Shown: piece after piece, positions 3,674-30,071 of the stretch
Numbering within the stretch: the first letter of the stretch is position 1
Layout: every line of letters starts with the position of its first letter
NCBI RefSeq assembly: GCF_003576315.1
Contig: NZ_QWFZ01000020.1
Span: forward strand, 248,001-312,000
Length of the DNA: 64,000 nucleotides
Reading direction: 5' to 3'
Origin: Henriciella mobilis
GTDB taxonomy: Bacteria; Pseudomonadota; Alphaproteobacteria; Caulobacterales; Hyphomonadaceae
Notes under the pieces: model-generated
Seen by the model: the letters and a program-made list of their open reading frames with translations, nothing else
What the model was told of the DNA's origin: nothing
Databases searched by the model: none
Program-made: the position numbers and the translations under genes

Positions 3674-3680
3674 CGGTCTG

Positions 3681-11162: not shown

Positions 11163-11169
11163 GAGGTTC

Positions 11170-13060: not shown

Positions 13061-13093
13061 AAAGGCCGCCGGGGGAGGAAACCGGCGACCTTT
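13061..13093. other. Hairpin between the TonB receptor gene and the SapC gene
   Basis: A 12-base stem AAAGGCCGCCGG / CCGGCGACCTTT (one mismatch or wobble) with a 9-base loop lies 41 bases after the receptor stop on the minus strand and 105 bases before the SapC start. The run of T is on the plus-strand side (13094-13099), so it is a poor terminator for the receptor transcript. It may act as an mRNA-stabilising or attenuating hairpin that lowers expression of the three downstream genes. Confidence 0.55.
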
Positions 13094-13134
13094 CTTTTTG
13101 ACCGCCAACGGACCTGGTGTCCGAGGCGACTTCT

Positions 13135-16100
13135 CTAGAATCTGTAGCGCGCTGACAGAATGTAACGCGGCGACAGTTCGTAGGCGTAGTAGACCTGCTC
13201 AGGCACACGGTGGTAGGTCCGCTGGTCCTCGCCGGTCAGGTTGATCGCCTCGAAGGACACGGCAATCTGGTCGGTGATGTCGTAGCTGACATTCATATCC
13301 CACTGGCCATAGTCCTCGACATAGATACCGGAACGGTCACCGGTCTGGTTTGTCTGCGCGAGGAAGGTGTCACGCCAGTTGTAGGCCAGACGCGCCGAGA
13401 AGCCGTACTTCTCGTAGATGCCGGTGATGTTGTAGGTGTCCGACAGGCCGGTCAGCGCGAACTGGTTCTCGGACGGGCTCGCGCCCGGATCGAGTTCCAC
13501 GTCGCCATTCACGACCGTGTAGCTGCCGGCAATGCCGAAGCCGGTATCGCCGAAGAAGTGCTGACCGGCAAACTCGAAGCCGTCAATCTTGCCTTCCCGG
13601 TTGTTGATCGGCTGCTCCACCGCAAAGGCGAAGAGCGGGTCATCGCCATTTGCAACCACATCGTACTGGCCGAGAATGGCGTCGACATAGCTCTGAGGAA
13701 GCGCATTCGCGGCAGCGCCGTCCGTGCCCAGACGGGACTGGAACTCGGCCTGCGCGGCAGCAACATTGCCACCATTGGCATCGATCAGGGCAACAAGGGT
13801 GAACAGGTTGGCTTCCGACTGGTCAACGCCAAGATCGGAAATGATGTCCAGCGCGTCGCCGGATCGGGAACCCGCTGACCCCGCAGTGGGATCGCGAAGA
13901 TCGAACAGGTTGCGGTCAACGACACCCGTACCGATGAAGTTCTTCACCCGCTTGTCGAAGTAACCAACCGACACATAGCTCGACTCGTCGAAGTACCATT
14001 CCAGCGAGAGATCGAAGTTGTCCGATTCAAGCGGCAGGAGATTCGGGTTCTGCGATGCGCCCGTCACCTGGCCACCAAGGACCGTCGGACGGTTGGGCGC
14101 ATTCGCCGTCGTCGATGCGAACAGGTTCGAGAAGGCCACACGGCCGATCGTCTTCGAGAAGGATGCCCGCGCGACGATGTCGTCGGTGAGGTCCATCTGG
14201 AAGTCCAGGTTGGGCAGCAGGTAATCATAGCTGCCTGACCCGCTCACCGATTCGCGGTCGGTACCGTTCTGGATGACGAAATCATTGTCAGCCGTCCACA
14301 CAATGGCCGTCGGAACGGTCTGGAGCGTATCAGAGCTGACCTCTGTTTCTTCATAACGCAGGCCGGCATTGATGCGGGCAGGACGATTGAAGAATTCGCT
14401 CTCCATCTCGAACTGAGCATAGAGCGATGTGATTTCTTCACTCACCGTGTCGTTCGAACCGCCCCGGATGATGTCGTTCTGCGCATAGGCATCCTGGAAG
14501 ATCGGGAAGAGCTGCGTGGGGCTCGAGCGGAAGGCCGTATCCGCCTTGCCGACCGGCAGATCGTCGAACACGCACTGAAGACAGTAGGTGGTCACAAGAC
14601 CCGGTGCGAACTGCTCCACATCACCAGGATTGCCGATGCCCCAGGAGCCGAGGTCCTGCTGCGTCGTCGCCGTGGCGCGGTCGAAGGTACTGTCGCGGTA
14701 GTTACCGCCCACGACGAGGCGGGAATTGTCGAGTTCCCATTCGAAGCGCAGATCGAGTTCGTCGATGCTGTTCTTCGCCGACGCGGTGCTGGAGCGCTGC
14801 ACCTGGGTGCCGAGGTCGCCGGCATCGAGAATACCGTTGCCGTTGCCGCGCACGCTGTCATCGATGGTGTAGTCCTGGACCGGATAGCCGGACCGGTAGT
14901 CGACCGAGTGGCTCAGGATCACCGGCGCACCGAACGTCACGAAGGTCGCGCTGTGCCCCAGCGGATTGTTGCCGCGGGACTTGGAGATCGAGCTGTGAGC
15001 GTCAAAAATGACCGACATATCGTCGTTCAGTTCCCAGTCGGCATTGAAGCCCAGTGAGCTCAGCGTATCGCGTGTCGCACGATCGGTTTGCTCAAAGCCG
15101 ATATCCTTCGACCCGTTATTGTTCTCCTGCATGAAGGCAGCAGAGGCAACCGGACCGTTATTGTTGAAGATGATCTGATCGAACGGGGTCGCGAACCAGT
15201 TGGTTTGTTCGAAACGGAGCTCTTCGGAGTCGTTGCGGGCGAAGGTGTAGTCACCCGTCAGGGTGAGGTTGTCCATCGGCCGGAATTGCATGACCAGCTG
15301 ACCGTTGATGCGCTCCCGCGAGAGTTCGGACAGGTCGTAGCGGCTGTCCTGCGGAATGGCATAGAGCTGCCCATCCTTCGGCGGATTCGTGATCTGCGTG
15401 CTGCCATCGCCGCGCACATAGCTGCTGTCTTCAAACGGCCCATCGACCGCTGGATCAAAGACAATCCAGTCATTGATCTGCTGCGTCGGCGCGCCGGAAT
15501 CGCGCTTGGCGTAGGAGCCGAAGAGGCTGACGCCGATACGGTTCTCTGCATCCGACCAGCTCGCGATACCGGAGAGTTCCGGGGTCACATCGTCGCCGTT
15601 GACGACGCTGTCATCGATGACGCCCTTGATCTGGCCCGAGCCGACAAAGCCGGACTGACCATTGTCCAGCGGGCGCTGTGTCACGATGTTCACTGTGGCA
15701 CCGATGCCGCCGGTTGGCAGGATGGCCTGACCCGTCTTGTAGACTTCGAGCGCGCTAACGCCCTCGGATGCGAGGTTGGAGAAGTCGAATGCCCGGTCGC
15801 CGCCGGCGCCGTAGTTGCCGCGTTGGCCGACCAGACGTGTTTCCGCGGTCGGCATGGTGCGCCCGTTCAGTGTGACGAGGTTAAAGTCCGGACCGAAACC
15901 GCGGACGGTGATTTCCGAGCCTTCGCCGTTCGTCCGGCTGATCGACACACCCGTGATGCGCTGAAGCGATTCAGCGAGGTTCGTGTCGGGAAACTTGCCG
16001 ATGTCTTCGGCGGAAATCGCGTCGACAACGCCGTTGGCGTTGCGCTTGATGTCCATCGCCTCTTCGAGCGATGACCGGATGCCCGTTACAACGACGACGT

Positions 16101-16248
16101 CCTGCCGGGCCTCTGACTCGGCGTCGGCGTCCTGAGCGTGAGCAGGCATCGCCGCCGCGATGGATACGGCCGATACACCCCCCAAAAGGCTACGCCACGC
16201 GATAGCGCCTGTACGACGGGTATAGCTCCGCTGGTTGCTTGAAGTCAC
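13135..16248 (-). CDS. TonB-dependent outer-membrane receptor (Caulobacter/Xanthomonas type)
   Basis: 1037-residue outer-membrane receptor for uptake of xylo-oligosaccharides (substrate inferred from context). I chose GTG 16248, which has GGGAGG 5-6 bases upstream; the in-frame ATGs further up fall among the operators. A signal peptide ends AHAQ near residue 39. A short TonB-box-like segment VVVVTGIRSS (51-60) is followed by a plug with AEDIGKFPDTNLAESLQRI and VRGFGPDFNLVTLNGR. The remainder is a 22-strand barrel ending in aromatic F (ARYRF). This subtype is the expanded TIGR01782-like family of Caulobacterales and Xanthomonadales. Two operators lie 66-146 bases upstream. It leads the SapC/cupin-8/halogenase genes. 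Confidence 0.94.
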   Translation of the reverse strand: MTSSNQRSYTRRTGAIAWRSLLGGVSAVSIAAAMPAHAQDADAESEARQDVVVVTGIRSSLEEAMDIKRNANGVVDAISAEDIGKFPDTNLAESLQRITGVSISRTNGEGSEITVRGFGPDFNLVTLNGRTMPTAETRLVGQRGNYGAGGDRAFDFSNLASEGVSALEVYKTGQAILPTGGIGATVNIVTQRPLDNGQSGFVGSGQIKGVIDDSVVNGDDVTPELSGIASWSDAENRIGVSLFGSYAKRDSGAPTQQINDWIVFDPAVDGPFEDSSYVRGDGSTQITNPPKDGQLYAIPQDSRYDLSELSRERINGQLVMQFRPMDNLTLTGDYTFARNDSEELRFEQTNWFATPFDQIIFNNNGPVASAAFMQENNNGSKDIGFEQTDRATRDTLSSLGFNADWELNDDMSVIFDAHSSISKSRGNNPLGHSATFVTFGAPVILSHSVDYRSGYPVQDYTIDDSVRGNGNGILDAGDLGTQVQRSSTASAKNSIDELDLRFEWELDNSRLVVGGNYRDSTFDRATATTQQDLGSWGIGNPGDVEQFAPGLVTTYCLQCVFDDLPVGKADTAFRSSPTQLFPIFQDAYAQNDIIRGGSNDTVSEEITSLYAQFEMESEFFNRPARINAGLRYEETEVSSDTLQTVPTAIVWTADNDFVIQNGTDRESVSGSGSYDYLLPNLDFQMDLTDDIVARASFSKTIGRVAFSNLFASTTANAPNRPTVLGGQVTGASQNPNLLPLESDNFDLSLEWYFDESSYVSVGYFDKRVKNFIGTGVVDRNLFDLRDPTAGSAGSRSGDALDIISDLGVDQSEANLFTLVALIDANGGNVAAAQAEFQSRLGTDGAAANALPQSYVDAILGQYDVVANGDDPLFAFAVEQPINNREGKIDGFEFAGQHFFGDTGFGIAGSYTVVNGDVELDPGASPSENQFALTGLSDTYNITGIYEKYGFSARLAYNWRDTFLAQTNQTGDRSGIYVEDYGQWDMNVSYDITDQIAVSFEAINLTGEDQRTYHRVPEQVYYAYELSPRYILSARYRF

Positions 16249-16313
16249 TTTTACCTCCCTTCGCCACCCTCTTTCCAATCGAGGATGATCATCCTTGTGG
16301 TGATGCGCCATAA

Positions 16314-16327
16314 TGTTAGCGCTATCG
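16314..16327. promoter_or_regulatory. LacI-type operator O1 of the TonB receptor gene
   Basis: TGTTAGCGCTATCG has the common core TTAGCGCTA centred at 16320.5. It is 66 bases upstream of the receptor GTG and pairs with a second copy centred 67 bases further upstream. Assignment to the LacI regulator at 35999-37030 is inferred. Confidence 0.72.
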
Positions 16328-16381
16328 TGCTCTAACAGAGCATTGTTTCGAGGGGCTGACAATCCCCTTCCCAAAATTTTT

Positions 16382-16393
16382 GATAGCGCTATC
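16382..16393. promoter_or_regulatory. LacI-type operator O2 of the TonB receptor gene
   Basis: GATAGCGCTATC is a perfect 12-base palindrome centred at 16387.5, 67 bases from the first operator. Two sites this far apart (about 6.4 helical turns) could allow DNA looping by a LacI-family dimer of dimers, but that is inference. Confidence 0.7.
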
Positions 16394-16460
16394 TTAAGTT
16401 CCTGAGTTTTCTACAAAAAACCTTGTGAAACCTGGACCCGCCATGGGGCAGGTGTGACCG

Positions 16461-16498: not shown

Positions 16499-17515
16499 CT
16501 AGATACCCATGGTCTTCGTCGGCAGTTCGTACAGCACGTCAGACGAAGTGATGAACAGACGCGAACCGTCGCCGCCAAAGGCACAGTTTGCTGTCGCTTT
16601 GGGCATTCTGATCCGTCCGAGGACCTGCCCCTGTGGCGCAACCACAAATATCCCGCCCGGGCCTGTTAGGAATATTCGACCGGCGGCATCGACGGCCATG
16701 CCGTCAGGCAGGCCTGGGCTGCCATCTTCAGCAAAAGGCGCGGCATCGAAAAGAATTCGATCCGACGCAATTGCACCATCCCCATCGAAGGAGAGTTCAC
16801 GCAGGATCGGCGCGGCCGGATCTGACTGGCTCACATAGAGGCGGGTCTGGTCCGGCGACAGCGCAACGCCGTTGGGAAATGTCATGTCATCGAGGAGCAG
16901 CTCCACAGTGCCGCCGGGCCGGAGCCTGTATACACCATTGAACGTCAGGGCCTTCAGCGGCGAGTCGTTCATCCCCGCCAGACCGTAGGGCGGGTCGGTG
17001 AAGTAAATTGTACCATCGGAGGCTTCAATCACATCATTCGGACTGTTGAACGGTTTTCCGTCGAACTGGTCGGCGACGACAGACCGCTCGCGTGTCTCGA
17101 TGTTCAGCCGCTCGACGCGCCTGAGCCCGTGATTGCAGACCAGGAGCGATCCGTCATTCGCATACAGCAAGCCATTGGAACCGGGCTCCCTGAACCCTTC
17201 GGCTTCCGCCGCGCCGGAGGGGTCGAGGAAAAGTTCCTTGCCGCCCGCCTCGCTCCACATCCACGCCTTGTTCTGAGGGACATCGGAGAAGTAGAGCCGC
17301 GCGCGCACAGGGTCCCAGGCCGGCCCCTCGCTCCAGGTGAATCCCTCGGCCCGCTTGATCAGCTTCGCGCCCGGATCGACAGTGTCGCGCAAGCCGTCAT
17401 CGAACACATCGAGCGTGACGGTCGCACCCTCATCGCTCACCAACGGGGCCGGTGCCTGGCACGCCGCTGCGGCGCCCGCGAGGCCAATAAGAACTTGCCG
17501 CCTGTGAAACCTCAT
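16499..17515 (-). CDS. Exported SMP-30/gluconolactonase family lactonase
   Basis: 338-residue lactonase of the same propeller family as the gene at 3681-4550 but exported. The N-terminus MRFHRRQVLIGLAGAAAAC has a twin arginine (5-6), a hydrophobic stretch and a lipobox ending at C19, so it is probably a Tat- or Sec-routed lipoprotein. Family motifs are E63 in WSEGPAW, NSPNDVIEASDG, FPNGVALSPD and LPDGMAVDAAG. Its start overlaps the stop of the upstream GH3 gene (ATGA). A periplasmic lactonase makes sense if aldonolactone is formed outside the cytoplasm, for example by the GFOR-like enzyme at 43797-45014. Xylonolactone is the likeliest substrate from context, with gluconolactone as alternative. 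Confidence 0.87.
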   Translation of the reverse strand: MRFHRRQVLIGLAGAAAACQAPAPLVSDEGATVTLDVFDDGLRDTVDPGAKLIKRAEGFTWSEGPAWDPVRARLYFSDVPQNKAWMWSEAGGKELFLDPSGAAEAEGFREPGSNGLLYANDGSLLVCNHGLRRVERLNIETRERSVVADQFDGKPFNSPNDVIEASDGTIYFTDPPYGLAGMNDSPLKALTFNGVYRLRPGGTVELLLDDMTFPNGVALSPDQTRLYVSQSDPAAPILRELSFDGDGAIASDRILFDAAPFAEDGSPGLPDGMAVDAAGRIFLTGPGGIFVVAPQGQVLGRIRMPKATANCAFGGDGSRLFITSSDVLYELPTKTMGI

Positions 17516-19896
17516 TGGACCGAAACCTCCGTTTCAATCGCAGCCGCCGGAACACGCGTCTGCGCGCCTTCGGTCACCTCGACCGAGACCTCGCCCGCAA
17601 TATCATCCGACGACGACCCGATCATGAAATCGAGACGCCCCGGCTCAATCAGCCAGCCGCCATCACCGTCATAAGTCGCCGATTGCGCAGGCGAAAGCGA
17701 GAACGTGACCGTAACCGACTGTCCGGCCGGGATGCTAACCCGTTTGAAGCCACGTAGCTCCTTCTTGGGCCGTGCGGTGCGCGAAACGGGGTCGCGCATG
17801 TAAAGCTGCACAACCTCTTCCCCGTCGCGTTCACCGTTATTGGTGACATCCACCGAGATATCGAATGCGTCCATCGGCCCGACGGCGCGCTTGCTCAACT
17901 GCGGTTCGCCGTAGGTGAATGTCGTATAGGTCAGCCCGTGACCGAACGCGAATTGCGGCGTGATCGGCAGGTCCATATAGCGATTGGAATCGACCGACAG
18001 ATCGGGATTGGCGGGCCGTCCGCTTGGTGGTTCGGAGTAAGTGAAGGGGAGCTGCCCCGTAGCCCTCGGAAAATCGACAGGCAGGCGGCCGGCAGGCATG
18101 CGGGCCCCGTAAACGACATCCGCAACAGCCGGTCCCGCCTCAACGCCAAGCATCCATGTCAGCAAGACAGCGTCAGCCTTTTCCGCGACATCCGGAATGG
18201 CCATGGCCCGGCCCGTGACCAGAAGCACGACCGCATCCGGCCTGGCCGCCAGCACGGCATCGGCCAGCGCCTTCTGTCCGGCTGGCAGCTCGACCGATGA
18301 GCGGCTGCGGGCCTCGCCCGACAGGTCAAAATCCTCGCCGATGACGAGGATGACTTCGCCTGCTGCTTTCGCGGCCTCAACCGCCGCCGCAATTGCCGTC
18401 TCATCGACCGTCTGGATACCACCGCCGGATTCGTAGCGCACTTTGACGCCGTCCGGTGCGCCATCGGTCAGGCCCTCGAGGATCGAAACAACATCATCCG
18501 CTTCGCCCCGCGCGCGCCATGAGCCGAGCTGGGTCATCCGGTCTTCGGCCAGGGTCCCGATGACCAGGATGTCGCCTGAAGGCTCGTTCAGCGGTAGCGT
18601 CTGATTGTCATTCTTCAAAAGCACCATGCTGCGGACGGCGATCTCGCGCGCGGCAGCCCGGTGCTCAGGGGTCAGGAGGCTCGCCTGTTCGCGCGCGGTG
18701 TCGTGATAGGCCAGCGGATTGTCGAACAGGCCGAGCCGCTCCTTCACCGAAAGGATATGGCCGACCGCCAGGTCGAGATCGGCCTTGAGCGCCGGGTCAC
18801 TTTCCAGCATCGCAGCCAGGTCTTCCCCGAACACACCACTCGTCATGTCCATATCAACGCCCGCCCGAAGCGCGAGCGCGCCTGCTTCGCCGCGGTTTGA
18901 AGCGACACCATGGTTGAGAAGCTCGGCGATGGCATTCCAGTCGGACACGACAAGACCGTCAAATCCCCATTGATCGCGCAGGATGCCATCGACCAGCGCC
19001 TCGGTTCCGGTGACGGGCTCGCCGCCAATATCGTTGAACGCCGTCATGTAGGAACCAACGCCAGCCTCTTCGGCAGCATAGAATGGCGGCAGGTAAACCT
19101 CATGGAAGGTGCGCTCAGAAATGTCGGCAGAGCCATAGTCGCGCCCGCCCAGGGCCGCGCCGTAGGCACCGAGATGCTTGGCGGTCGCCAGTATCGTGTC
19201 GGGCTCGGCAAGCGAGGTCCCCTGATAGCCGCGCACCTGCGCAACCGCCATCTGGCTCGATAGATAGGGATCGGACCCGGCGCCCTCGACAATCCGGCCC
19301 CAACGCGGATCGCGGGCAATGTCGATCATCGGCGCGAATGTCCAATGCAAGCCGGCCGACGTGGCCTCTACAGCAGAAATGCGTGCGGCCTCTTCCCAGG
19401 CAGACGGGTCGAACGAACTGGCAATCGCGATCGGCACCGGGAAAATCGTGCGATATCCGTGCACGACATCCATGGCAAAAAGGAGCGGGATGCCGTGTTC
19501 GCTTTCCTCGACGGCGACCCGCTGAAGCGCGCCGAGCGGTTCGGCGCCCGCGACATGGAGATAGGATCCCACCTTGCCGGCGCGCACCCGGTCGAGCTCG
19601 GCATCGGTGAGCCGTGAATTCAGCGATTTGCTGCGCCCGCCAGCCGCCTGGACGAGTTGCCCGATTTTCTGGTCGACGGTCATTTCATCGAGGAGACTTT
19701 CGACCCGCGGACTGAAGTCGGACGCTGGTTCAGCCTCTGAAACAGGCGGCGCTGGTGCAGCGGTCTGCGCAGGCGGCGCAGCAACACAGGACGCCGCTGC
19801 AAACGCAACCGCCACAGCACTGGCAGCCCTGCCGCGCTGTCCGCGTTCGGCCCGTAAATGCTCGATAATTCGCGCGAAATTCTGCACCACAGCCAT
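17512..19896 (-). CDS. GH3 beta-glucosidase/xylosidase (BglX-like)
   Basis: 794-residue glycoside hydrolase family 3 enzyme, closest in layout to periplasmic BglX: two-domain GH3 core plus C-terminal FnIII-like domain, no PA14. ATG 19896 has GGGAGG 6 bases upstream; a longer in-frame opening to 20385 is antisense to the permease gene and is rejected. The N-terminus has an unusually long charged segment before the hydrophobic stretch and ends in a possible lipobox AASC (C37). Motifs are DIARDPRWGRIVEGAGSDP (192-210), KHLGAYGA and the nucleophile D319 in VVSDWNAI. It is co-transcribed with the exported lactonase and faces the GntP gene across one operator. Confidence 0.92.
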   Translation of the reverse strand: MAVVQNFARIIEHLRAERGQRGRAASAVAVAFAAASCVAAPPAQTAAPAPPVSEAEPASDFSPRVESLLDEMTVDQKIGQLVQAAGGRSKSLNSRLTDAELDRVRAGKVGSYLHVAGAEPLGALQRVAVEESEHGIPLLFAMDVVHGYRTIFPVPIAIASSFDPSAWEEAARISAVEATSAGLHWTFAPMIDIARDPRWGRIVEGAGSDPYLSSQMAVAQVRGYQGTSLAEPDTILATAKHLGAYGAALGGRDYGSADISERTFHEVYLPPFYAAEEAGVGSYMTAFNDIGGEPVTGTEALVDGILRDQWGFDGLVVSDWNAIAELLNHGVASNRGEAGALALRAGVDMDMTSGVFGEDLAAMLESDPALKADLDLAVGHILSVKERLGLFDNPLAYHDTAREQASLLTPEHRAAAREIAVRSMVLLKNDNQTLPLNEPSGDILVIGTLAEDRMTQLGSWRARGEADDVVSILEGLTDGAPDGVKVRYESGGGIQTVDETAIAAAVEAAKAAGEVILVIGEDFDLSGEARSRSSVELPAGQKALADAVLAARPDAVVLLVTGRAMAIPDVAEKADAVLLTWMLGVEAGPAVADVVYGARMPAGRLPVDFPRATGQLPFTYSEPPSGRPANPDLSVDSNRYMDLPITPQFAFGHGLTYTTFTYGEPQLSKRAVGPMDAFDISVDVTNNGERDGEEVVQLYMRDPVSRTARPKKELRGFKRVSIPAGQSVTVTFSLSPAQSATYDGDGGWLIEPGRLDFMIGSSSDDIAGEVSVEVTEGAQTRVPAAAIETEVSVQ

Positions 19897-19934
19897 TTCG
19901 TCCTCCCTTGGTCTGGCGTCTTCGCCATGAATTA

Positions 19935-19948
19935 TGTTAGCGTTCCCA
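19935..19948. promoter_or_regulatory. LacI-type operator between GH3 and gntP genes
   Basis: TGTTAGCGTTCCCA keeps the left half TGTTAGCG but has a degenerate right half. It is 39 bases upstream of the GH3 ATG and 192 bases upstream of the gntP ATG, so it chiefly serves the GH3-lactonase unit. Nothing else recognisable was seen in the 243-base gap 19897-20139. Confidence 0.62.
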
Positions 19949-20139
19949 CTTCCAAAATTGTTAGGCACTGTCAAACTGCTTTTGGAATTCGAAGACCAAG
20001 ACGCTGGATCAACCAGCCATTCGAAATGACCGAGGGACAAGGGAGGAATCGTCCGTGAAACGCTGCCCAGCGATCCAACGCGATCGCCAGACAAATCTTG
20101 AATCCAGCGCGCAGACACACGCCAGTTCGACGGTCTGTC

Positions 20140-21507
20140 ATGGATAGTTCTCTTCTTGGCCTGCTGATCATCATCGGAGGCATCGCAGCACTGCTGGCGA
20201 TGATCATCCTCGCACGTATCCCAGCCTTCATTGCGCTTCTTGTGACCTCGATTGGCGTTGCGCTGGCCGCTGGCATGCCGGCCGACGCCATCATGGGCTC
20301 GATCCGCGACGGCATGGGTGGGACGCTCGGCTTCGTTGCGGTGGTTGTCGGCCTCGGTGCGATGCTCGGCGCCATTCTCGAGCATTCCGGCGGCATCCAG
20401 TCTCTGTCCCGCGCAGCCCTTTCAACAGCCGGACCACGCGGCGCTCAGTGGGCCCTGGCCGGCGTCGGCGTTGCCGTGTCCATTCCTGTCTTCTTCGACG
20501 TTGCCTTCATCATCCTCGCGCCAATGCTGTTCGGCCTGGCGCGACGCTCCGGCCGCCCGGTTCTCTGGTTTGCGATCCCCGCGCTTGCGGGCATGGGCAT
20601 GGCGCACACATTCCTGCCGCCAACGCCCGGGCCGATAGCAGTCGCCGACCTCATCGGCGCCAATCTTGGCTGGGTCTTCCTGACCGGTCTGGCAACGGGC
20701 GTCCCGGCCGTCTTGCTGGGCGGCATCGTATTCGCCCCGATGGCATCGAGACTGGCAGGACCTGTACTGGATGCCGGACCGGCCTCCTTGCCTGAAGCGC
20801 TCGAAGAAGTGGCTCCCGAAACGGACGGCGCGAAACCGCCCTCGGCCCTTGCCGTCCTGCTGATCATTCTCGCTCCGCTTGCGCTCATCGTCCTTGGCGC
20901 CTTCGCAGGAATGTTGCCTGTGCCAGAGGCGGTCCAGGGTGTCCTGACCTTCGTCGGACATCCCTTTGCGGCCCTGCTGGTCGCCTGCGCCGTCGCCTAT
21001 GTCGTGCTGGGCCTTGGCCATGATTTTGAACCGGAAGCCCTGAACAAGGTCATGGGAAAGTCGCTGGAGCCGGCAGGCGTTATCGTTCTTATCACGGGCG
21101 CGGGCGGCGCGTTCAAGCAGGTCCTGGTCGATTCCGAGCTCGGCAACCAGATCGCCGACCTCATGGTCTCCGCCAATCTCGCCCCCATCGTCATGGCCTT
21201 CGCGATTGCAGCCATATTGAGGGTCGCCCAGGGCTCTGCCACCGTCGCCATGATCACCAGCGGCACACTCGTCTCAGCCATGATCGACACGGCAAATGCC
21301 TCGCCCATAGGCCTCGCCCTGATCGTCTCCAGTATCGCATCCGGCGCCATTGTCTGCAGCCATGTGAACGACTCAGGCTTCTGGCTGGTGAGCCGCTATC
21401 TTGGCCTGACCGAAACGCAGACGCTCAAGACCTGGACGGTGATGACGACCATCATCGGCGTATCGGGCTTCCTCATCGCCTGCCTCATTGCGCTCATAGC
21501 GACCTGA
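20140..21507 (+). CDS. GntP-family sugar-acid permease
   Basis: 455-residue inner-membrane transporter of the gluconate:H+ symporter family, about twelve hydrophobic segments. Typical motifs are FVAVVVGLGAMLGAILEHSGG (about residues 65-85), LPPTPGPIAVADLIGANLG (about 165-183), the ITGAGGAFKQVLVDS stretch (about 318-332) and GSATVAMITSG. Family members import gluconate or related aldonates. I chose ATG 20140 for the usual family N-terminus; a start at 20098 adds a basic, non-family extension. It stands between an exported lactonase and the xylX-xylD-dehydrogenase genes, which suggests that it imports xylonate (or arabonate). This substrate is inferred. Confidence 0.92.
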   Translation: MDSSLLGLLIIIGGIAALLAMIILARIPAFIALLVTSIGVALAAGMPADAIMGSIRDGMGGTLGFVAVVVGLGAMLGAILEHSGGIQSLSRAALSTAGPRGAQWALAGVGVAVSIPVFFDVAFIILAPMLFGLARRSGRPVLWFAIPALAGMGMAHTFLPPTPGPIAVADLIGANLGWVFLTGLATGVPAVLLGGIVFAPMASRLAGPVLDAGPASLPEALEEVAPETDGAKPPSALAVLLIILAPLALIVLGAFAGMLPVPEAVQGVLTFVGHPFAALLVACAVAYVVLGLGHDFEPEALNKVMGKSLEPAGVIVLITGAGGAFKQVLVDSELGNQIADLMVSANLAPIVMAFAIAAILRVAQGSATVAMITSGTLVSAMIDTANASPIGLALIVSSIASGAIVCSHVNDSGFWLVSRYLGLTETQTLKTWTVMTTIIGVSGFLIACLIALIAT

Positions 21508-21540
21508 CGGCCAACCGCCTTTGCGACCGCGAATGTTTGA

Positions 21541-21554
21541 TGTTAACGCTATCT
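21541..21554. promoter_or_regulatory. LacI-type operator in front of xylX
   Basis: TGTTAACGCTATCT matches the operator family and ends 16 bases before the xylX ATG, 33 bases after the gntP stop. It means the xylX-xylD-dehydrogenase genes probably have their own regulated promoter inside or after the gntP gene. Confidence 0.72.
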
Positions 21555-21570
21555 TTCAGAAAGTAGCCCC

Positions 21571-22731
21571 ATGGATTTGCCGCTCCGTTCAGATCAGATT
21601 TTGCCAGATGACGCAGACGCGTTTCTGATTGGGCGGGTCTGGTCGCATGAGGAAGGTGGCCCCTGCCCCGTGCTGATCAGCGGCGGCCGTGTGATCAACC
21701 TGATCCCTGTCGCGCCGACCGTGTCTGCCCTGCTGGAATCGACGCTGCCGGACCGTACCGAACTGTCCGGCCTGCCCGATCTCGGACCGCTCGACGCATT
21801 CCTGTTGCCGGACGATGATGAACGCTGCCTCGGCAGCCTGCTCGCGCCGTGCGACCTGCAGGCCATAAAGGCTGCGGGCGTGACCTTCGCTGCCAGCCTG
21901 CTTGAGCGTGTCGTGGAAGAACGCGCTGGCGGAGACCCGGCGCGCGCGGAAGAATTGCGCGCTGAACTGTCAGCGACCATCGCGGGCGACTTTGCGTCGA
22001 TCAAGCCGGGGTCTGCCGAGGCAGACACCCTGCGCACCCGCCTGAAGGCTGAAGGGCTGTGGTCGCAATACCTGGAGGTTGGCTTCGGCGAATATGCTGA
22101 GATCTTCACCAAGGCCCAGCCCATGTCCGCGGTGGGCTGCGGCGCGGAGATCGGCATCCTGTCGGCCTCCGACTGGAACAATCCTGAACCCGAAGTCGCC
22201 CTCGTCGTGACCTCGCGGGGTGACATTGTCGGCGCAACGCTCGCCAATGATGTGAACCTCCGGGACATGGAAGGCCGATCGGCACTGCTGCTCGGCAAGG
22301 CGAAGGACAACAATGCATCCTGCGCCATCGGCCCTTTCATCCGGCTGTTCGATGGGGATTTCGGCCTGGCGGATGTCGGGCGCGCCGAGATCAGCCTGGA
22401 AGTGGTCGGCAAGGATGGCTTCCACCTGGAGGGCGCCAGCGACATGTCAAAGATTTCCCGGCGGCCGGAGGACCTCGTCTCACAGGCAATCGGCAAGCAT
22501 CATCAGTATCCGGACGGCCTGCTTGTCCTTCTGGGAACGATGTTCGCCCCGGTGGAAGACAGGCGCGCGCCAGGTCAGGGCTTCACGCACGAAGCTGGCG
22601 ATTGCGTAAAGATATCAACGCGCTCTCTCGGCACCCTGATCAACTGGACGACCGCTTCGGAAACGACTGCGCCTTGGACATTCGGAACCGGCGCGCTGAT
22701 GACCAACCTTGCAAAGCGAGGAGTGCTCTGA
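21571..22731 (+). CDS. xylX: FAH-family 2-keto-3-deoxy-xylonate (or arabonate) dehydratase
   Basis: 386-residue protein of the fumarylacetoacetate hydrolase fold, matching the XylX type that dehydrates 2-keto-3-deoxy-pentonate to 2-oxoglutarate semialdehyde, the second-last step of the Weimberg pathway. The Mg-site region is recognisable in NPEPEVAL (about residues 207-214) and in VGATLANDVNLRDMEGRSA. It starts just after an operator and overlaps the dehydratase gene (TGATG). In Caulobacter the xyl operon has this gene as xylX with xylA, xylB, xylC and xylD; here xylB is missing. L-arabonate is the alternative substrate, because both acids give the same type of intermediate. Confidence 0.85.
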   Translation: MDLPLRSDQILPDDADAFLIGRVWSHEEGGPCPVLISGGRVINLIPVAPTVSALLESTLPDRTELSGLPDLGPLDAFLLPDDDERCLGSLLAPCDLQAIKAAGVTFAASLLERVVEERAGGDPARAEELRAELSATIAGDFASIKPGSAEADTLRTRLKAEGLWSQYLEVGFGEYAEIFTKAQPMSAVGCGAEIGILSASDWNNPEPEVALVVTSRGDIVGATLANDVNLRDMEGRSALLLGKAKDNNASCAIGPFIRLFDGDFGLADVGRAEISLEVVGKDGFHLEGASDMSKISRRPEDLVSQAIGKHHQYPDGLLVLLGTMFAPVEDRRAPGQGFTHEAGDCVKISTRSLGTLINWTTASETTAPWTFGTGALMTNLAKRGVL

Positions 22732-24515
22732 TGACCGATACCGGCAAGCGACAATTCAGGCTGCGCTCGCAGGACTGGTTCGACAATCTCGATCATGCCG
22801 ACATGGCCGCACTCTACCTCGAACGCTTCACCAATTACGGCCTGACGCTCGAGGAGCTGCGCGAAGGCCGTCCCATCATAGGCATCTCTCAGTCGGGCTC
22901 GGACCTTGCGCCGTGCAATCGCATTCATGTCGACCTTGTACAGCGCGTGAAGGATGGCGTGCGCGACGCTGGCGGCATCCCGATCGAATTCCCGATGCAT
23001 CCGATCTTCGAGAACTGCCGCCGCCCGACCGCCGCCCTCGACCGTAACCTCGCCTATCTCGGCCTTGTCGAGATCCTGCATGGCTATCCGCTCGACGGCG
23101 TTGTCCTCACCACGGGATGCGACAAGACCACACCGGCCGCGCTGATGGCCGCTGCGACAACCAACCTGCCGGCGATCATCCTCTCCGGCGGCCCGATGCT
23201 CGACGGCTGGTCGAATGGCGAACGCGTGGGGTCCGGCACGGTTCTCTGGCGCGTGCGCAAGGAGTATGCGGCCGGCAAGATCACGCGCGAGACGCTGATC
23301 GAACGCGTCGCCGCATCAACGCCGTCTGCCGGCCACTGCAACCCGATGGGCACGGCGCTGACGATGAACTCGCTCGCCGAAGCGCTCGGCATGTCGCTCA
23401 CCGGCTCGGCCACCATCCCGGCGCCTTACAAGGAACGTCCGCAATGCGCCTACCAGACGGGCAAGCGCGCGGTTGGCCTGGTCGAGGAAAAGCTGAAGCC
23501 GCTCGACGTGATGACGCGCGCGGCCTTCCTGAACGCCATCCGCGTGAACGCCGCGATTGGTGGCTCACCCAATGCCTATCCCCACCTCATGGCGATTGCG
23601 CGCCATGCCGGCGTCGAGCTTACAGCCGCCGACTGGAACGAGTTCGGTTACCACATTCCGCTGCTCGCAAATGTCCAGCCGGCCGGCGAATATCTCGGCG
23701 AACATTTCCATCGCGCTGGCGGCATCCCGGCCATCATGACGGAGCTTGCAGGTGCCGGTCAGCTGGACGAGGCCGCGATGACCGTGACAGGCAAACCCCT
23801 CGGCGAAACTCTCAAAAACCTCCGCCGGGCTGATCGCAAAGTGATCTATGCCTACGACACGCCCGTGCGCCAAAAGGCAGGCTTCAAGGTCCTCACCGGA
23901 AACCTCTTCGACAGCGCCATCATGAAGACGAGCGCCATATCGGACCACTTCCGGAAGACTTATCTCTCGGACCCCGGCAAGACAGACGTCTTCGAGGCCC
24001 GCGCCGTCGTGTTCGACGGATCGGAAGATTATCGCAGCCGGATCAACGACCCCGCGCTGAACATTGACGAGCGCTGCATCCTCGTCATGCGCGGCGCCGG
24101 ACCGGTCGCCTGGCCAGGCTCGGCGGAGGTCGTGAACATGCAACCGCCTGACGCGCTGATCAAAAACGGCGTCGACAGCCTGCCGACCCTTGGCGATGGC
24201 CGCCAGTCCGGTACCTCGGGCAGCCCCTCCATCCTCAATGCCAGCCCCGAAGCGGCCGAAGGCGGCGGCCTCGCCTGGCTAAAGGATGGCGACGTCATTC
24301 GGATCGACCTCAATACAGGCCACTGCGACGCGCTCGTCGACGAGGAGGAGATCGCCCGCCGCAAGCAGGACCTCGCCTATGCCGTCCGGGGCAGCGAAAC
24401 CCCGTGGCAGGCTATGTACCGCGCCTCCGTCACACAGCTCGGCGATGGCGCCGTCATCAAGGGCGCAGACGAATTTCGAAACGTTACCGCGCGGCTACCG
24501 CGCCACAATCACTGA
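22731..24515 (+). CDS. xylD: D-xylonate (or L-arabonate) dehydratase, IlvD/Edd family
   Basis: 594-residue Fe-S dehydratase converting pentonate to 2-keto-3-deoxy-pentonate. The three cysteines that hold the [2Fe-2S] cluster in sugar-acid dehydratases are present at C62 (LAPCNR), C130 (TTGCDKTTP) and C203 (GHCNPMGTALTMN). The length is that of pentonate dehydratases rather than IlvD (about 560) or Edd. ATG 22731 shares a base with the upstream stop (TGATG). The downstream aldehyde dehydrogenase completes the path to 2-oxoglutarate. D-xylonate is preferred from the xylan context; L-arabonate cannot be excluded. Confidence 0.9.
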   Translation: MTDTGKRQFRLRSQDWFDNLDHADMAALYLERFTNYGLTLEELREGRPIIGISQSGSDLAPCNRIHVDLVQRVKDGVRDAGGIPIEFPMHPIFENCRRPTAALDRNLAYLGLVEILHGYPLDGVVLTTGCDKTTPAALMAAATTNLPAIILSGGPMLDGWSNGERVGSGTVLWRVRKEYAAGKITRETLIERVAASTPSAGHCNPMGTALTMNSLAEALGMSLTGSATIPAPYKERPQCAYQTGKRAVGLVEEKLKPLDVMTRAAFLNAIRVNAAIGGSPNAYPHLMAIARHAGVELTAADWNEFGYHIPLLANVQPAGEYLGEHFHRAGGIPAIMTELAGAGQLDEAAMTVTGKPLGETLKNLRRADRKVIYAYDTPVRQKAGFKVLTGNLFDSAIMKTSAISDHFRKTYLSDPGKTDVFEARAVVFDGSEDYRSRINDPALNIDERCILVMRGAGPVAWPGSAEVVNMQPPDALIKNGVDSLPTLGDGRQSGTSGSPSILNASPEAAEGGGLAWLKDGDVIRIDLNTGHCDALVDEEEIARRKQDLAYAVRGSETPWQAMYRASVTQLGDGAVIKGADEFRNVTARLPRHNH

Positions 24516-24539
24516 CCCAACGAATCCGAAAGGATAGAC

Positions 24540-26057
24540 ATGACCGACAAGCTCACCGGACAGCATCTCATCGCAGGCGAATGGCACGCATCTACGAAGA
24601 CCTTCGAATCCAACGGCCTCGACGGAGAGAGCTTTGACGTCTCCAGCGGCGGCGCAGCCGAAGTCGATCGCGCCGCAAAGGCCGCCGACGAGGCCTACCG
24701 AACCTATGGCTGGACCTCGCGCGAAACGCGGGCCGATTTTCTCGACAAGATTGCAGACTGCATAGAGACCCGCGGCGAAGCCATCACCAAGGCTGGCATG
24801 GCCGAAACCGGCCTTCCCGAGGGCCGCCTCAATGGCGAGCGTGGGCGCACGACCGGCCAGCTCCGCCTCTTCGCCGACCATATCCGCAAGGGCGAATACC
24901 TCGACCGGCGCCATGCCGAAGCGCAGCCCGACCGCCAACCTGCCCCGCGCCCGGACCTGCGCCTCATGCAACGTCCCATGGGCCCGGTCGCCGTGTTCGG
25001 CGCATCCAATTTCCCGCTCGCCTTCTCGACCGCTGGCGGCGACACGGCCGCCGTACTTGCTGCTGGTTGCCCCGTCATCGTCAAGGCACACCCGGCCCAT
25101 CCGCGCACCGGCGAACTCGTCGCGCGCGCCATCGCAGAGGCCATTGATGCCTGCGGCATGCCAGCCGGTACGTTCGGCTTCATTCAGGGCGAAACCCATG
25201 AGCTTGGCCAGGCCATGGTCGACCATCCGCTCGTCAAGGCCGCCGCCTTTACCGGCTCTCTCGGTGCAGGGCGCGCCCTTTACGACCGCTGCGCCGCAAG
25301 GCCGGAGCCGATCCCGTTCTATGGAGAATTCGGCTCGATCAACCCGGTCTTCATTCTACCCGGCGCGCTGAAGGAAAGAGGCGTACAGATCGGCGAAGGC
25401 TGGGCCGGATCGCTGACACTCGGCGCCGGCCAGTTCTGCACCAATCCGGGCATTGTCTTCGCTCGCGAAGGCGAAGGTCTCGATGGCTTTGTGGACGCTG
25501 CGAGCAAGGCCATCGCCGCATCCGCGCCCCAGACCATGCTGACCGACTCCATCGCCGCCTCTTACCGCAAAGGCGCGTCGACCTTCAGGCAGAGCGACAA
25601 TGTCAAAGAGCTGGCCTGTTCAGAGGCCGATGGCCGTCAGGGCGGTCCTGCTATCTTCAGGGCGTCGCTCGACACATGGCTCACAAACCCCGCCCTGTCG
25701 GAAGAAGTGTTCGGCCCCGCCGGCATCGTTGTTACCGTCCCCGATGACACCGCCTACAGCCGCGCAGCCGAGGCGCTTGCAGGCCAGCTGACTGCCACCG
25801 TGCAGATGGAGGCGGGCGACCGGGAAACGGCCCGTTCGCTGCTTCCGGCGCTCGAACGCACGGCGGGCCGGATCCTGTTCAATGGCTTCCCAACGGGGGT
25901 CGAAGTGTCGGACGCCATGGTCCATTCCGGCCCCTATCCGGCGACGACCAATTTCGGCGCGACGTCTGTCGGCACGATGGCGATCCGCCGCTTCCTGCGG
26001 CCGGTCTGCTATCAGGATATGCCCGACGCCCTGCTGGACGGCGACCTGCGCTTTTAG
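24540..26057 (+). CDS. 2-oxoglutarate semialdehyde dehydrogenase
   Basis: 505-residue aldehyde dehydrogenase of the alpha-ketoglutaric semialdehyde dehydrogenase group, oxidising the XylX product to 2-oxoglutarate with NAD(P)+. Visible motifs are the cofactor region VFGASNFPLAFSTAGGDTA (about residues 152-170), FTGSLGAGRALYD and the catalytic C300 in GAGQFCTNPG. The latter deviates slightly from the GQ-x-C-T consensus but keeps the cysteine and threonine. A good AAAGGA site precedes ATG 24540. It corresponds to Caulobacter XylA (not to xylose isomerase, which is encoded separately at 28728-30071). Confidence 0.9.
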   Translation: MTDKLTGQHLIAGEWHASTKTFESNGLDGESFDVSSGGAAEVDRAAKAADEAYRTYGWTSRETRADFLDKIADCIETRGEAITKAGMAETGLPEGRLNGERGRTTGQLRLFADHIRKGEYLDRRHAEAQPDRQPAPRPDLRLMQRPMGPVAVFGASNFPLAFSTAGGDTAAVLAAGCPVIVKAHPAHPRTGELVARAIAEAIDACGMPAGTFGFIQGETHELGQAMVDHPLVKAAAFTGSLGAGRALYDRCAARPEPIPFYGEFGSINPVFILPGALKERGVQIGEGWAGSLTLGAGQFCTNPGIVFAREGEGLDGFVDAASKAIAASAPQTMLTDSIAASYRKGASTFRQSDNVKELACSEADGRQGGPAIFRASLDTWLTNPALSEEVFGPAGIVVTVPDDTAYSRAAEALAGQLTATVQMEAGDRETARSLLPALERTAGRILFNGFPTGVEVSDAMVHSGPYPATTNFGATSVGTMAIRRFLRPVCYQDMPDALLDGDLRF

Positions 26058-28066: not shown

Positions 28067-28717
28067 TCAGACCTTGATGCCGGCCTTCTCTGCGTCGGCG
28101 AGGAAGGCCTTGAGGCCCTTGTCGGTCAGGACATGGCCGGCAAGCGAGCGGATCACATCCGGCGGCGCGGTGACGACATCGGCGCCGATAAGCGCGCATT
28201 CCTTCACATGGTTGGCACTGCGGATCGAGGCGGCAAGCACTTCAGTCTCGAAGCCGTAATTGTCATAGATAGTGCGGATGTCCTGGATGAGGTCCATGCC
28301 ATCGATGTTGATATCGTCCAGCCGGCCGATGAAGGGCGAGATGTAGCTTGCCCCGGCCTTGGCTGCGAGCAGCGCCTGATTGGCCGAGAAGCAGAGCGTC
28401 ACATTGGTGCGCGTGCCTTCGGATCTCAGCTTGCGGCAGGCTTTCAACCCGTCGAGCGTGAGCGGCAGCTTCACGACGACATTGGGTGCCAGCGCGGCCA
28501 GCGCCCGGCCTTGCTCGAGCATGCCGGCCTCATCGGTCGCGATGACCTCAGCGCTCACCGGACCATCGGTGACTTCACAGATTTCCACGATGACTTCGCG
28601 GAAATCGCGGCCGGACTTTCCGACCAGGCTGGGATTGGTCGTGACGCCATCCACAAGACCGGTTGCATGCAGGTCGCGGATCGCTGCGACATCGGCAGTA
28701 TCGACGAAAAACTTCAT
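28067..28717 (-). CDS. Transaldolase / fructose-6-phosphate aldolase type (TalC-like)
   Basis: 216-residue cytosolic aldolase of the small transaldolase subfamily. The N-terminus [20 protein letters not shown] (26-31) and the Schiff-base lysine K83 in VVVKLPLT are characteristic, as is [10 protein letters not shown]. It would link xylulose-5-phosphate made by the upstream kinase to glycolysis via the non-oxidative pentose-phosphate pathway. It lies 10 bases after the isomerase stop and 15 bases before the esterase. Whether it acts as a transaldolase or an F6P aldolase cannot be told from length alone. Confidence 0.92.
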
Positions 28718-28727: not shown

Positions 28728-30071
28728 CTATTTCAGGCTGCGGTTGACGAGGTTTTCCAGATATTCCTGACGGCCGGACGTGTGCTTGCCGTCGAGGCCT
28801 GCGCTCGCAGCGTGGTCGGCAATCGTTTCCAGTGACGCGTCCGGCGACAGCATGCGCTGGCCGAGCTCGCCTTTCCAGCCGGCATAGCGCTCATCCTTGA
28901 AGGCCTGGATCTCGCCGCGCTCGACAATGTCTGCCGCCGACAGGAGTGCCCGCGCCAGCGCATCCACGCCGCCGACATGCGCATAGACCAGATCGATCTC
29001 ATCGGAGCTCTGGCGGCGCACCTTGGCGTCGAAGTTGAAGCCCCCAGTATCAAGTCCGCCGGATGGCAGCAGCTCGACCAGCGCCAGAGTGATGTCGCGG
29101 ATGTCGAGATGAAACTGGTCGGTGTCCCAGCCATTCTGGTAGTTGCCGGTGTTGATGTCGATCGAGCCCATCATGCCGAGCGAGACCGCCGTTGCCACTT
29201 CGTGCGAGAAGCTGTGGCCCGACAGCGTCGAGTGGTTCGGCTCGATGTTCACATGCACCTCGCCAAGCAGGTCGAAGCGTTTCAGGAAGCCATAGATCGT
29301 CGCCACGTCGAAATCGTACTGGTGGTACATCGGCTCGTGCGGCTTCGGCTCGATCAGGATCTTGCCGTCAAAACCGAGCTTATGCTTGTGCTCGACGACC
29401 ATGGAAAGGAAGCGGCCGAAATTCTCCAGCTCGCGGGTAAGGTCGGTGTTGAGCAGCGTGTCATAGCCTTCGCGCCCGCCCCAGAGGACATAGTTTGCGC
29501 CCCCGAGCTTGTGGGTCGCCTCCAGGCAGTCGCGAATCTGGCGGATCGCGCAGGCGGCAACTTCCGGGTCCGGATTGGTCAGGCCGCCGGCGGCATAGCG
29601 CGGATGGCCGAACAGCTTCGCCGTACCCCAGAGCAGCTTGACGCCGGTCTCTTCCTGGTAGCCGGCCAGACGATCGGTCTGGCGCTTGAAATTGTTCGAC
29701 AGCTCGTCGGGCGTGTCGGAGGCTTCGGTGATGTCCTCATCGTGGAAGCAGTAGAATGGCAGGCCGAGCACCTTGAAGAAATCGAAAGCGGCGGCCATGC
29801 GCGCATCGGCGGCGGCGCGGTCATTTCCGGTACGCTGCCAGGGGCGGTTGAAGGTGCCAGCGCCGAACACGTCGAAGCCGTCCCAGCAGAAGGTGTGCCA
29901 GTAGCAGACGGCCATGCGCAGGTGGTCTTCCATCCGCTTGCCGAGGACCATCTGGTCCTTGTCATAGTAGCGGTAGGCCAGCGGGTTGTCGCTGCTTACG
30001 CCCTCGAACTTGACCGGCGCCATGTCGGCGAAGGGTGACCGGCTCCCAAGACTTGCATTCGAATCTGCCAT
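28728..30071 (-). CDS. xylA: D-xylose isomerase
   Basis: 447-residue cytosolic enzyme that converts D-xylose to D-xylulose, of the longer class-II type (about 440 residues). Recognisable features are YWHTFCWDG (about 57-65), the catalytic histidine in FYCFHDEDI (about residue 106), metal-binding [26 protein letters not shown] and [14 protein letters not shown] lies 7 bases before the ATG. The xylulokinase gene ends 1 base upstream, so the two are tightly coupled. Its presence beside a complete-looking lower Weimberg pathway means that two xylose routes are encoded. Confidence 0.96.

Follow-up and report, generated by a model that had tools for sequence, protein, structure and literature searches.

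The lower Weimberg genes of Henriciella mobilis lie next to genes for a predicted exported lactonase and an aldonate importer, an arrangement that raises the question of where, and by which enzyme, xylose would be oxidised. The stretch of DNA analysed (the window) comprises 64,000 nt (assembly GCF_003576315.1, contig NZ_QWFZ01000020.1, positions 248,001–312,000, forward strand); coordinates are window positions, and those prefixed L001 belong to the DNA left of the window. The sequence-only reading of this DNA had proposed a periplasmic branch of the Weimberg pathway, but named no oxidase and was silent on the isomerase pathway; a candidate oxidase is encoded at 43797–45014, and xylose isomerase and xylulokinase genes are present in the same window. 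The present analysis suggests that the locus may provide entry to the Weimberg pathway from the periplasm, alongside a xylose isomerase route in the cytosol, with a probability slightly below one half (about 0.48), and that the sugar-oxidising enzyme for the pathway is probably encoded further along the same window, by a GFOR-type gene. The model is built on homology-based gene identities, operator sites, retention of the genes in a sister genome and linkage in two genera.

Gene content of the divergent block

The divergent block and the receptor gene beside it contain the following features:
13135–16374, minus strand: TonB-dependent receptor (PF00593, PF07715); open frame, the true start is probably later
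16499–17515, minus strand: predicted exported SGL-family lactonase (PF08450, 165 bits)
17512–19896, minus strand: GH3 glycosidase (PF00933/PF01915); probable predicted start at 19896
20140–21507, plus strand: GntP-family aldonate:H+ symporter (PF02447, 428 bits; TIGR00791, 388 bits, cut-off 293)
21571–22731, plus strand: XylX-type 2-keto-3-deoxypentonate (KDX) dehydratase (best solved relatives 9kkt, 406 bits, and 2q18, 82 bits)
22731–24515, plus strand: XylD-type D-xylonate dehydratase, IlvD/EDD (5oyn, 928 bits); probable predicted start at 22731
24540–26057, plus strand: alpha-ketoglutaric semialdehyde dehydrogenase candidate (best solved relatives 3v4c and 1eyy)

The genes are thus those named previously: one arm carries the genes for the exported lactonase and GH3, the other those for GntP, XylX, XylD and the aldehyde dehydrogenase. 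The N-terminus of the lactonase reads as a Tat-like twin arginine followed by a lipobox-like stretch, according to the usual rules for these motifs. Its best solved relatives are 3e5z ('putative gluconolactonase') and 3dr2 ('exported gluconolactonase'), and residues E63, N160, N215 and D271, which we take to be the metal ligands, are invariant in an alignment of eight sequences. The GH3 gene overlaps the lactonase start by ATGA, and among the matches listed the nearest NCBIfam model for its product is BglX, at 620 bits under the cut-off of 666. In relatives, the lactonase and GH3 are found fused.

The symporter belongs to the GntP family by homology, and xylonate is a candidate substrate. No Pfam match at 1e-8 was found for the 21571–22731 product, and its solved relatives place it as a predicted KDX dehydratase of the XylX type. 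The searches with XylD used queries spanning 22722–24515; the protein contains the Fe-S/Mg motifs CDKTTP, PTLGDGRQSGT and PCN, which the available part of PMC5770437 gives for IlvD/EDD dehydratases, and it is predicted to be a D-xylonate dehydratase of this type. The aldehyde dehydrogenase has a catalytic-type Cys in GQFCTNPG, and among the NCBIfam matches listed (25 of 39), none for this protein was over cut-off.

The shared operator and a candidate oxidase

Beyond the block, the window encodes further xylan and xylose genes and carries ten LacI-type operator sites (given without strand):
28728–30071, minus strand: xylose isomerase (TIGR02630, 596 bits, cut-off 533)
30073–31596, minus strand: xylulokinase (TIGR01312, 537 bits, cut-off 380)
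31853–33286, plus strand: XylE-like sugar porter (TIGR00879, 355 bits, over cut-off; XylE model, 378 bits, under its cut-off of 608)
35999–37030, minus strand: LacI-family regulator (PF00356)
40401–42866, plus strand: GH3 with ExoP-type C-terminal domain (PF00933, PF01915, PF18559); open frame from 40266, predicted start
42763–43800, plus strand: aldose 1-epimerase (PF01263, 117 bits); open frame, the true start is later
43797–45014, plus strand: GFOR/AAOR-type oxidoreductase with twin-arginine signal (1ofg, E 3e-96; 5a02, E 1.5e-82)
16314–16327 and 16381–16394: two operators upstream of the TonB receptor (PWM 19.6 and 20.4)
19935–19948: operator in the divergent gap (PWM 16.4; 14.0 when left out)
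21541–21554: operator between gntP and xylX (PWM 19.5, non-seed; identical in the sister genome)
31607–31620: operator (PWM 22.5)
31794–31807: operator (PWM 19.0)
35944–35957: operator upstream of a GH3 gene (PWM 21.1; no sister counterpart at 14)
37107–37120: weak operator upstream of lacI (PWM 14.8; no sister counterpart at 14)
38389–38402: operator between GH10 xylanase and GH43 genes (PF00331, PF04616; PWM 22.5)
40298–40311: operator upstream of the GH3-galM-GFOR genes (PWM 16.9, non-seed; identical in the sister genome)

The operator that had been noticed in both arms of the block proved genuine: ten sites were found in the window at a PWM score of at least 14, including those in the divergent gap and between gntP and xylX, whereas 100 dinucleotide shuffles gave 0.21 on average and never more than 2; the threshold was picked after the scores were seen. 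At a score of 8 the excess over shuffles was too small (19 matches against 5–11 in 10 shuffles), so the threshold of 14 was adopted. Seven of the ten sites were PWM seeds, taken from eight pattern-search matches (1.5 expected); the eighth match, at 8702 within a GH3 gene, was discarded. Omitted singly, the seven seeds scored 14.0–21.8. Eight of the ten have counterparts at a score of at least 14 in the genome of the same-genus sister (G135). The LacI-family regulator at 35999–37030 is presumed to read the operator.

The ExoP-type GH3 gene is presumably the first of the operon that contains the GFOR-type gene, which the aldose 1-epimerase gene overlaps by ATGA and which is separated from the aldehyde dehydrogenase gene by 17.7 kb. 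By homology, the GFOR-type protein is a member of Gfo/Idh/MocA closest to Zymomonas GFOR and Caulobacter AAOR, and is a candidate periplasmic xylose oxidase. All six rows of the alignment share the twin arginine, read as a predicted Tat signal, as well as EK from the EKP motif, and five have the full EKP; the NCBIfam matches include no GFOR model, the best being Gfo6 (215 bits, cut-off 350). The best solved relative is the GFOR of Zymomonas mobilis, for which we know of no Weimberg link; the alignment covers 358 residues, including the N-terminal arm. The Zymomonas enzyme also has a Tat signal (PMC4628093, as available) and converts fructose and glucose to sorbitol and gluconolactone (available part of PMC8304316). 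For the AAOR of Caulobacter, the accessible text of PMC4628093 describes conversion of xylose to xylonate and xylitol, a gene located with the gluconolactonase gene CC1224 and a physiological role called unclear, and that of PMC9795676 tight binding of NADP.

A Tat-exported enzyme of this kind, with tightly bound NADP, would form the lactone in the periplasm by oxidising xylose, and perhaps xylo-oligosaccharides or glucose as well, and would at the same time convert a partner sugar to an alditol by reduction. The lactone would be opened by the exported lactonase, GntP would bring in the aldonate, and XylD, XylX and the aldehyde dehydrogenase would convert xylonate to 2-oxoglutarate, while the LacI-family regulator would switch the xylan-degradation genes together with the periplasmic branch. 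Export, the substrate, GntP specificity, the lactone source and the regulator that binds are predicted elements of this scheme. In a variant of it, the enzyme would oxidise xylobiose, the lactonase would open the oxidised oligosaccharide and the overlapping GH3 would free xylose and xylonate, each of which would be taken up by its own importer, xylose for the isomerase route and xylonate for the Weimberg route. That a periplasmic Weimberg pathway is supplied by a cofactor-recycling enzyme of the GFOR type instead of a respiratory PQQ enzyme, possibly via the reducing end of xylobiose, is a tentative proposal that we consider clearly less probable than periplasmic entry itself.

Gene neighbourhoods in relatives

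XylX was found at E 1e-60 in 77 of 385 class-level genomes, and 117 XylX regions were compared, 41 at the order level (40 genomes) and 76 at the class level, where some stretches end early at contig ends. As a marker of Weimberg clusters, XylX alone was rejected: most loci have no dehydratase nearby, and 74 of the 117 regions were therefore excluded, including those of G221 and G076, which have the SDR and lactonase close by but lack a dehydratase within 10 kb. The 43 clusters with XylX and a dehydratase comprise 31 with an SDR and without GntP, four with GntP and an exported lactonase and without an SDR, eight with neither and none with both (Fisher p 0.004, a value that overstates independence, since the four GntP clusters come from only two genera).

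A tally read by eye over the 40 XylX-positive genomes of the order (GFOR at E 1e-40) gave an exported-lactonase match (E ≤1e-50) in 19/19 genomes with GFOR versus 8/21 without, and the two genes lie within 2.5 kb of each other in 11 of the 19. In two genomes of another family, G104 and G129, GFOR, GH3, lactonase, XylX, dehydratase and GntP form one cluster on one strand, and only in these is GFOR within 10 kb of xylX. No XylB-like SDR was found in either at E 1e-40; the dehydratase is of the L-arabinonate type in both, and in G104 the search within 10 kb of this xylX yielded no such aldehyde dehydrogenase. G135, the one same-genus genome compared for GFOR, lactonase and GntP, keeps the lactonase (82%), GntP (94%), XylX (90%) and GFOR (94%).

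The reported absence of XylB holds for the window, and a search within 10 kb of xylX gave neither a XylB SDR nor a XylC-type lactonase, but the genome search revealed a XylB-like SDR 805 bases left of the window (L001:8421–9197). It scores 317 bits with the XylB model NF053674, under the curated cut-off of 400, versus 427–450 bits for the XylX-adjacent SDRs in six of six tested from the 31 clusters, and in the tree it falls outside the clade of 12 XylX-adjacent rows (support 100/98; long branch). The genome has no second SDR of this kind, the remaining 36 matches having at most 38% identity, and the genes around it encode an L-arabinonate-type dehydratase, GguC/AraD1, arabinofuranosidase-like proteins and an ABC transporter; operator L001:9253 is located just downstream, ahead of the transporter genes. 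The same arabinose-type cluster runs on into the left of the window, where it includes a second lactonase:
3681–4550, minus strand: lactonase with no signal evident by reading (best solved relative 7plb, presumably Caulobacter XylC; 159 bits)
The SDR may oxidise xylose, and with it and the 7plb-type lactonase at 22 and 17 kb from xylX, the lack of a cytosolic dehydrogenase would be too firm a claim for this genome. The periplasmic-branch idea gains from a Tat-type GFOR/AAOR protein with the same operator, from a sister genome that keeps the module and gave no XylB-like SDR at E 1e-40 and from the clusters in another family, but has to reckon with this SDR.

Competing explanations and known systems

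The ExoP-type GH3 ahead of GFOR and the BglX-like GH3 partner of the lactonase suggest glucose, and the module could serve gluconate: GH3 would free glucose from glucans, GFOR and the lactonase would make gluconate for import by GntP, and the Weimberg genes would use xylonate made in the cytosol by the SDR and the 7plb-type lactonase, located 22 and 17 kb from xylX. In several relatives the lactonase–GntP pair indeed occurs in glucan, not xylose, contexts; the GH3-lactonase-GntP trio adjoins a GH9 cellulase gene in G123, and a gluconokinase gene is beside the lactonase in G129. However, gntP ends only 63 bases ahead of xylX in the window and in G135 alike, the SDR is under the XylB cut-off, and G135, where no XylB-like SDR was found at E 1e-40, yet retains xylX, xylD and the aldehyde dehydrogenase, and we regard this explanation as less probable than periplasmic entry, although glucose and gluconate stay serious rivals as substrates.

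Somewhat less probable again is a scavenging route, with xylonate supplied by other organisms, by oxidative cleavage of xylan or by a soluble PQQ aldose sugar dehydrogenase that uses imported PQQ. The genome encodes two strong PF07995 candidates (390 and 379 bits) and a weaker third, and G135 two (394 and 382 bits), but these genes of H. mobilis are outside the cluster, and pqqC gave no match in this genome, a result without a positive control, as 14 control genomes likewise gave none. A membrane PQQ glucose dehydrogenase was also considered as the oxidase and rejected, its best TIGR03074 match in this genome reaching 128 bits versus a cut-off of 833.

An ordinary cytosolic Weimberg pathway, in which the SDR beside the window would act as xylose dehydrogenase and the roles of the exported lactonase and GntP would be no more than accessory, is the least probable, for although this SDR is the only one of its kind and has an operator downstream, its XylB score, its place in the tree, its arabinose-type neighbours and its absence from the sister genome all argue against it.

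The periplasmic entry proposed here most resembles that of Pseudomonas taiwanensis VLB120. The available part of PMC11252243 describes there a periplasmic Weimberg pathway with the PQQ-dependent oxidase Gcd, a lactonase and import by a GntP that transports xylonate, followed, as predicted for the window, by xylonate dehydratase, KDX dehydratase and KGSADH. Unlike in that strain, gntP, xylX and xylD are adjacent in the window, and the linked candidate oxidase is of the GFOR type, no Gcd-like enzyme in the genome being over cut-off. A GFOR-type oxidase instead of a PQQ enzyme would make the locus a new variant of the periplasmic Weimberg pathway and would give GFOR/AAOR enzymes a concrete role, the supply of aldonate for import. 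If true, the first step of this Weimberg entry would require neither PQQ nor cytosolic NAD, and the exported oxidase, lactonase and importer would be native parts for strains converting xylose to 2-oxoglutarate. In the open-access literature, the available text of PMC9795676 and PMC8304316 describes no native host whose Weimberg pathway is fed by GFOR or AAOR.

Caulobacter, where the gene order is xylXABCD, shares XylX and XylD homologues and a nearby LacI-type gene with the window, but the window has GntP and an exported lactonase in place of XylB and XylC near xylX, and xylose isomerase and xylulokinase under the same operator. The CC1224–CC1225 (gluconolactonase–AAOR) locus of Caulobacter also combines a lactonase with a Tat-type GFOR/AAOR enzyme. 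Such pairs occurred in 8 of 80 named lactonase loci, all in Caulobacter and Brevundimonas (a ninth match, L128 at 80 bits, was not counted); GntP and XylX were not found in the stretches read around the pairs, and no clear XylX was found in the 80 loci, some of them short. Unlike these AAORs, the window enzyme has an N-terminal arm resembling that of GFOR, and it does not cluster with the rows from Caulobacter and Brevundimonas.

Gene content and shared operator of the divergent block

The genome (3.97 Mb, completeness 99.99%) contains the window as bases 248001–312000 of its contig 13. Homology searches placed all genes of the divergent block where the sequence-only reading had put them:

16499-17515, minus strand, lactonase
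17512 to about 19896, minus strand, GH3 glycosidase (start inferred)
20140-21507, plus strand, GntP (start inferred)
21571-22731, plus strand, XylX
22731-24515, plus strand, XylD (start inferred)
24540-26057, plus strand, aldehyde dehydrogenase

The lactonase start overlaps the GH3 stop as ATGA. Reading of the sequence revealed a twin arginine and a lipobox-like stretch at the lactonase N-terminus, the twin arginine being seen in five of eight aligned lactonase sequences, including this one. A fructose-6-phosphate aldolase/transaldolase-like gene at 28067-28717 (TIGR00875, 282 bits, cut-off 246) adjoins the isomerase gene.

A 14-base palindrome near TGWTARCGYTAWCA occurs at ten window sites with a PWM score of at least 14; 100 shuffles gave 0.21 such sites on average and never more than 2. 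The sites at 21541, 37107 and 40298 were not seeds of the PWM:

16314, 16381, 19935, 21541, 31607, 31794, 35944, 37107, 38389, 40298, operator sites

The genes near the sites encode a TonB receptor, GH3-lactonase, GntP, XylX, xylulokinase-isomerase, a XylE-like porter, GH3, LacI, GH10, GH43 and GFOR. Further sites lie in the stretch left of the window (L001:4774 and L001:9253), and the right-hand stretch, L002, contains none scoring 12 or above. The same-genus sister genome G135 has eight sites scoring at least 16 (L033 16865, 16933; L034 514, 2121, 12183, 13453, 17507, 19415); within the stretches read, sites 35944 and 37107 have no counterpart there at score 14. The LacI-family protein encoded at 35999-37030 is the presumed binder. 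The identification of the genes is firm, as is the operator.

A GFOR-type candidate for the periplasmic oxidase

The sequence-only reading, which proposed oxidation of xylose to xylonolactone and xylonate in the periplasm, GntP import and conversion by the lower Weimberg enzymes, had missed a Gfo/Idh/MocA protein encoded at 43797-45014. Its closest solved structures are the Zymomonas glucose-fructose oxidoreductase (GFOR, 1ofg, E 3e-96) and the Caulobacter aldose-aldose oxidoreductase (AAOR, 5a02, E 1.5e-82), the next kind of relative being 4had (2e-31). All six aligned rows share the twin arginine and the EK of the EKP motif, with the full EKP in five, and the protein has an N-terminal arm that can be aligned with the one in GFOR. 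Among NCBIfam models the best match, that for the haloarchaeal D-xylose dehydrogenase Gfo6, stays below its cut-off (215 of 350 bits). The start of the gene overlaps the end of an aldose 1-epimerase gene by ATGA, and both are preceded by a GH3 gene with the operator at 40298 upstream.

PMC4628093 reports that Caulobacter AAOR in yeast converts xylose to equimolar xylonate and xylitol, and that this enzyme, whose physiological function is called unclear, has a Tat signal and an adjacent gluconolactonase gene; according to PMC8304316, Zymomonas GFOR converted 42% of added xylose to xylonic acid when fructose was present. As for other oxidases, no membrane PQQ glucose dehydrogenase exceeded the cut-off in this genome (best 128 of 833 bits), and three soluble PQQ-type aldose dehydrogenases (PF07995) are encoded outside the window, a weaker one (109 bits) and two strong ones (390 and 379 bits):

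G000:C36:5862-6854 and C13:11696-12736, strong soluble PQQ-type aldose dehydrogenases of this genome

No pqqC match was found in this genome, a weak absence, as none of the 14 control genomes was positive either.

The periplasmic proposal is partly supported, and better than the sequence-only reading knew, because the GFOR gene was found; we put the odds that such a branch carries xylose carbon at about even. A periplasmic Weimberg pathway with lactonase, GntP xylonate import and PQQ-dependent Gcd is described for P. taiwanensis VLB120 (PMC11252243); the candidate oxidase here, unlike Gcd, is GFOR-type. If true, the new elements would be a GFOR-type oxidase in such a pathway, an exported module tied to xylX-xylD both physically and by regulation, and its presence alongside xylose isomerase.

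XylX clusters and a possible cytosolic dehydrogenase

XylX is present in 40 of the 249 genomes of the order. Among these 40, a XylB-like short-chain dehydrogenase (SDR) was found in 28 (E 1e-40), GntP in 17 (E 1e-10), GFOR in 19 (E 1e-40) and the lactonase family in 37 (E 1e-10), 27 of them strong by eye (E 1e-50 or better). Every one of the 19 genomes with GFOR also has a strong lactonase match, compared with 8 of the 21 XylX genomes without it, and in 11 of the 19 the two genes lie within 2.5 kb. Named Caulobacter loci share a kinase-lactonase-GFOR arrangement with genome G141 of this order, which makes the Caulobacterales the probable order of the present genome.

The survey of XylX regions covered 117 (41 from the 40 order genomes and 76 from a class-level sample of 385 genomes), 43 of which have a pentonate-type dehydratase within 10 kb. 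Of these clusters, 31 contain SDR without GntP, 4 contain GntP and exported lactonase without SDR, 8 neither and none both (Fisher p 0.004, which is too small, because by genus the four GntP clusters are two cases). A 7plb-type lactonase accompanies 30 of the 31 SDR clusters and two of the eight neither-type ones. Two of the GntP clusters belong to this genome and G135, and two to a single further genus (G104 and G129); searches of G135, G104 and G129 revealed no XylB-like SDR at E 1e-40. A tree of 13 rows joins the GFOR proteins of all four genomes in one group, moderately supported (89/88). Both G104 and G129 carry the genes in the order GFOR, GH3, lactonase, XylX, dehydratase, GntP on a single strand, with an aldehyde dehydrogenase present in the G129 cluster and absent from that of G104.

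This genome encodes an SDR at L001:8421-9197, 805 bases left of the window, the sole one of its kind (36 other matches, at most 38% identity). It scores 317 bits on the NCBI XylB model, below the cut-off of 400; all six tested XylX-adjacent SDRs score 427–450, and of four others tested, two score 321 and two fall short of the E 1e-80 listing limit. One of the 321-bit SDRs, that of G513, is counted among the 31 clusters, being 3.5 kb away from its XylX. In a 21-row tree, 12 XylX-adjacent rows form a clade (100/98); the window-side SDR, on a long branch, falls outside it, and so does a further SDR near XylX, that of G249. The neighbours of the window-side SDR encode an L-arabinonate-type dehydratase (closest solved relatives 5j83/5j84, 5j85, 9evv), a GguC/AraD1 protein (510 bits, cut-off 340), arabinofuranosidase-like proteins (by reading) and an ABC transporter. 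For the lactonase at window 3681-4550 the nearest relative is 7plb.

Next to the xylan cluster there is a second oxidation cluster, of L-arabinose type (window 1-4550 and L001:3301-10189), comprising a GH51-like gene and those for GguC/AraD1, dehydratase, SDR, transporter and lactonase, with operator copies at L001:4774 and 9253. In L213-L216 (genomes G201, G076, G221 and G240), a second XylB-like SDR, separate from the XylX-adjacent one, lies beside a XylD-type dehydratase near an SSS transporter; the G201 copy, the only one tested, reaches 321 bits on the XylB model (cut-off 400). Beside the TonB receptor (window 9660-13208) are a SapC gene and genes of tryptophan halogenase-like and cupin-like type; the halogenase-like kind recurs in L053, L064 and L067, all lactonase loci, and close to the second SDRs of L213-L215.

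Possible gluconate role of the exported module

The main rival explanation gives the exported module a role in gluconate use. Among the 80 named lactonase loci examined, which rank highest of 577 confirmed relatives and some of which are short, GntP occurs in 12, GFOR in 8 with a weak ninth, and XylX once, weakly (L094, 90 bits). In several relatives, a BglX-like GH3 accompanies the lactonase-GntP pair, together with a GH9 cellulase in G123; a gluconokinase gene adjoins that of the lactonase in G129. These glucan and gluconate contexts, the ExoP-type domain in the GH3 ahead of the GFOR gene and the rarity of XylX in the named loci suggest that the module may have arisen for glucose and gluconate, with two lineages then linking it to the Weimberg genes; in the window it may serve glucose even now.

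Two named loci (L087:7358-10924, L124:7520-10921) encode GH3 and lactonase as a fusion in a single reading frame, and so apparently do G025 and G089 (L038:11348-14632, L044:6245-9520), which suggests that both activities address one substrate; the two enzymes therefore probably cooperate, oxidised oligosaccharides being a possible target. In a Sphingomonadaceae locus, L060:5590-20663, without XylX in the stretch read, genes for GntP, GH3, exported lactonase, xylose isomerase, xylulokinase, LacI and a XylE-like porter lie together.
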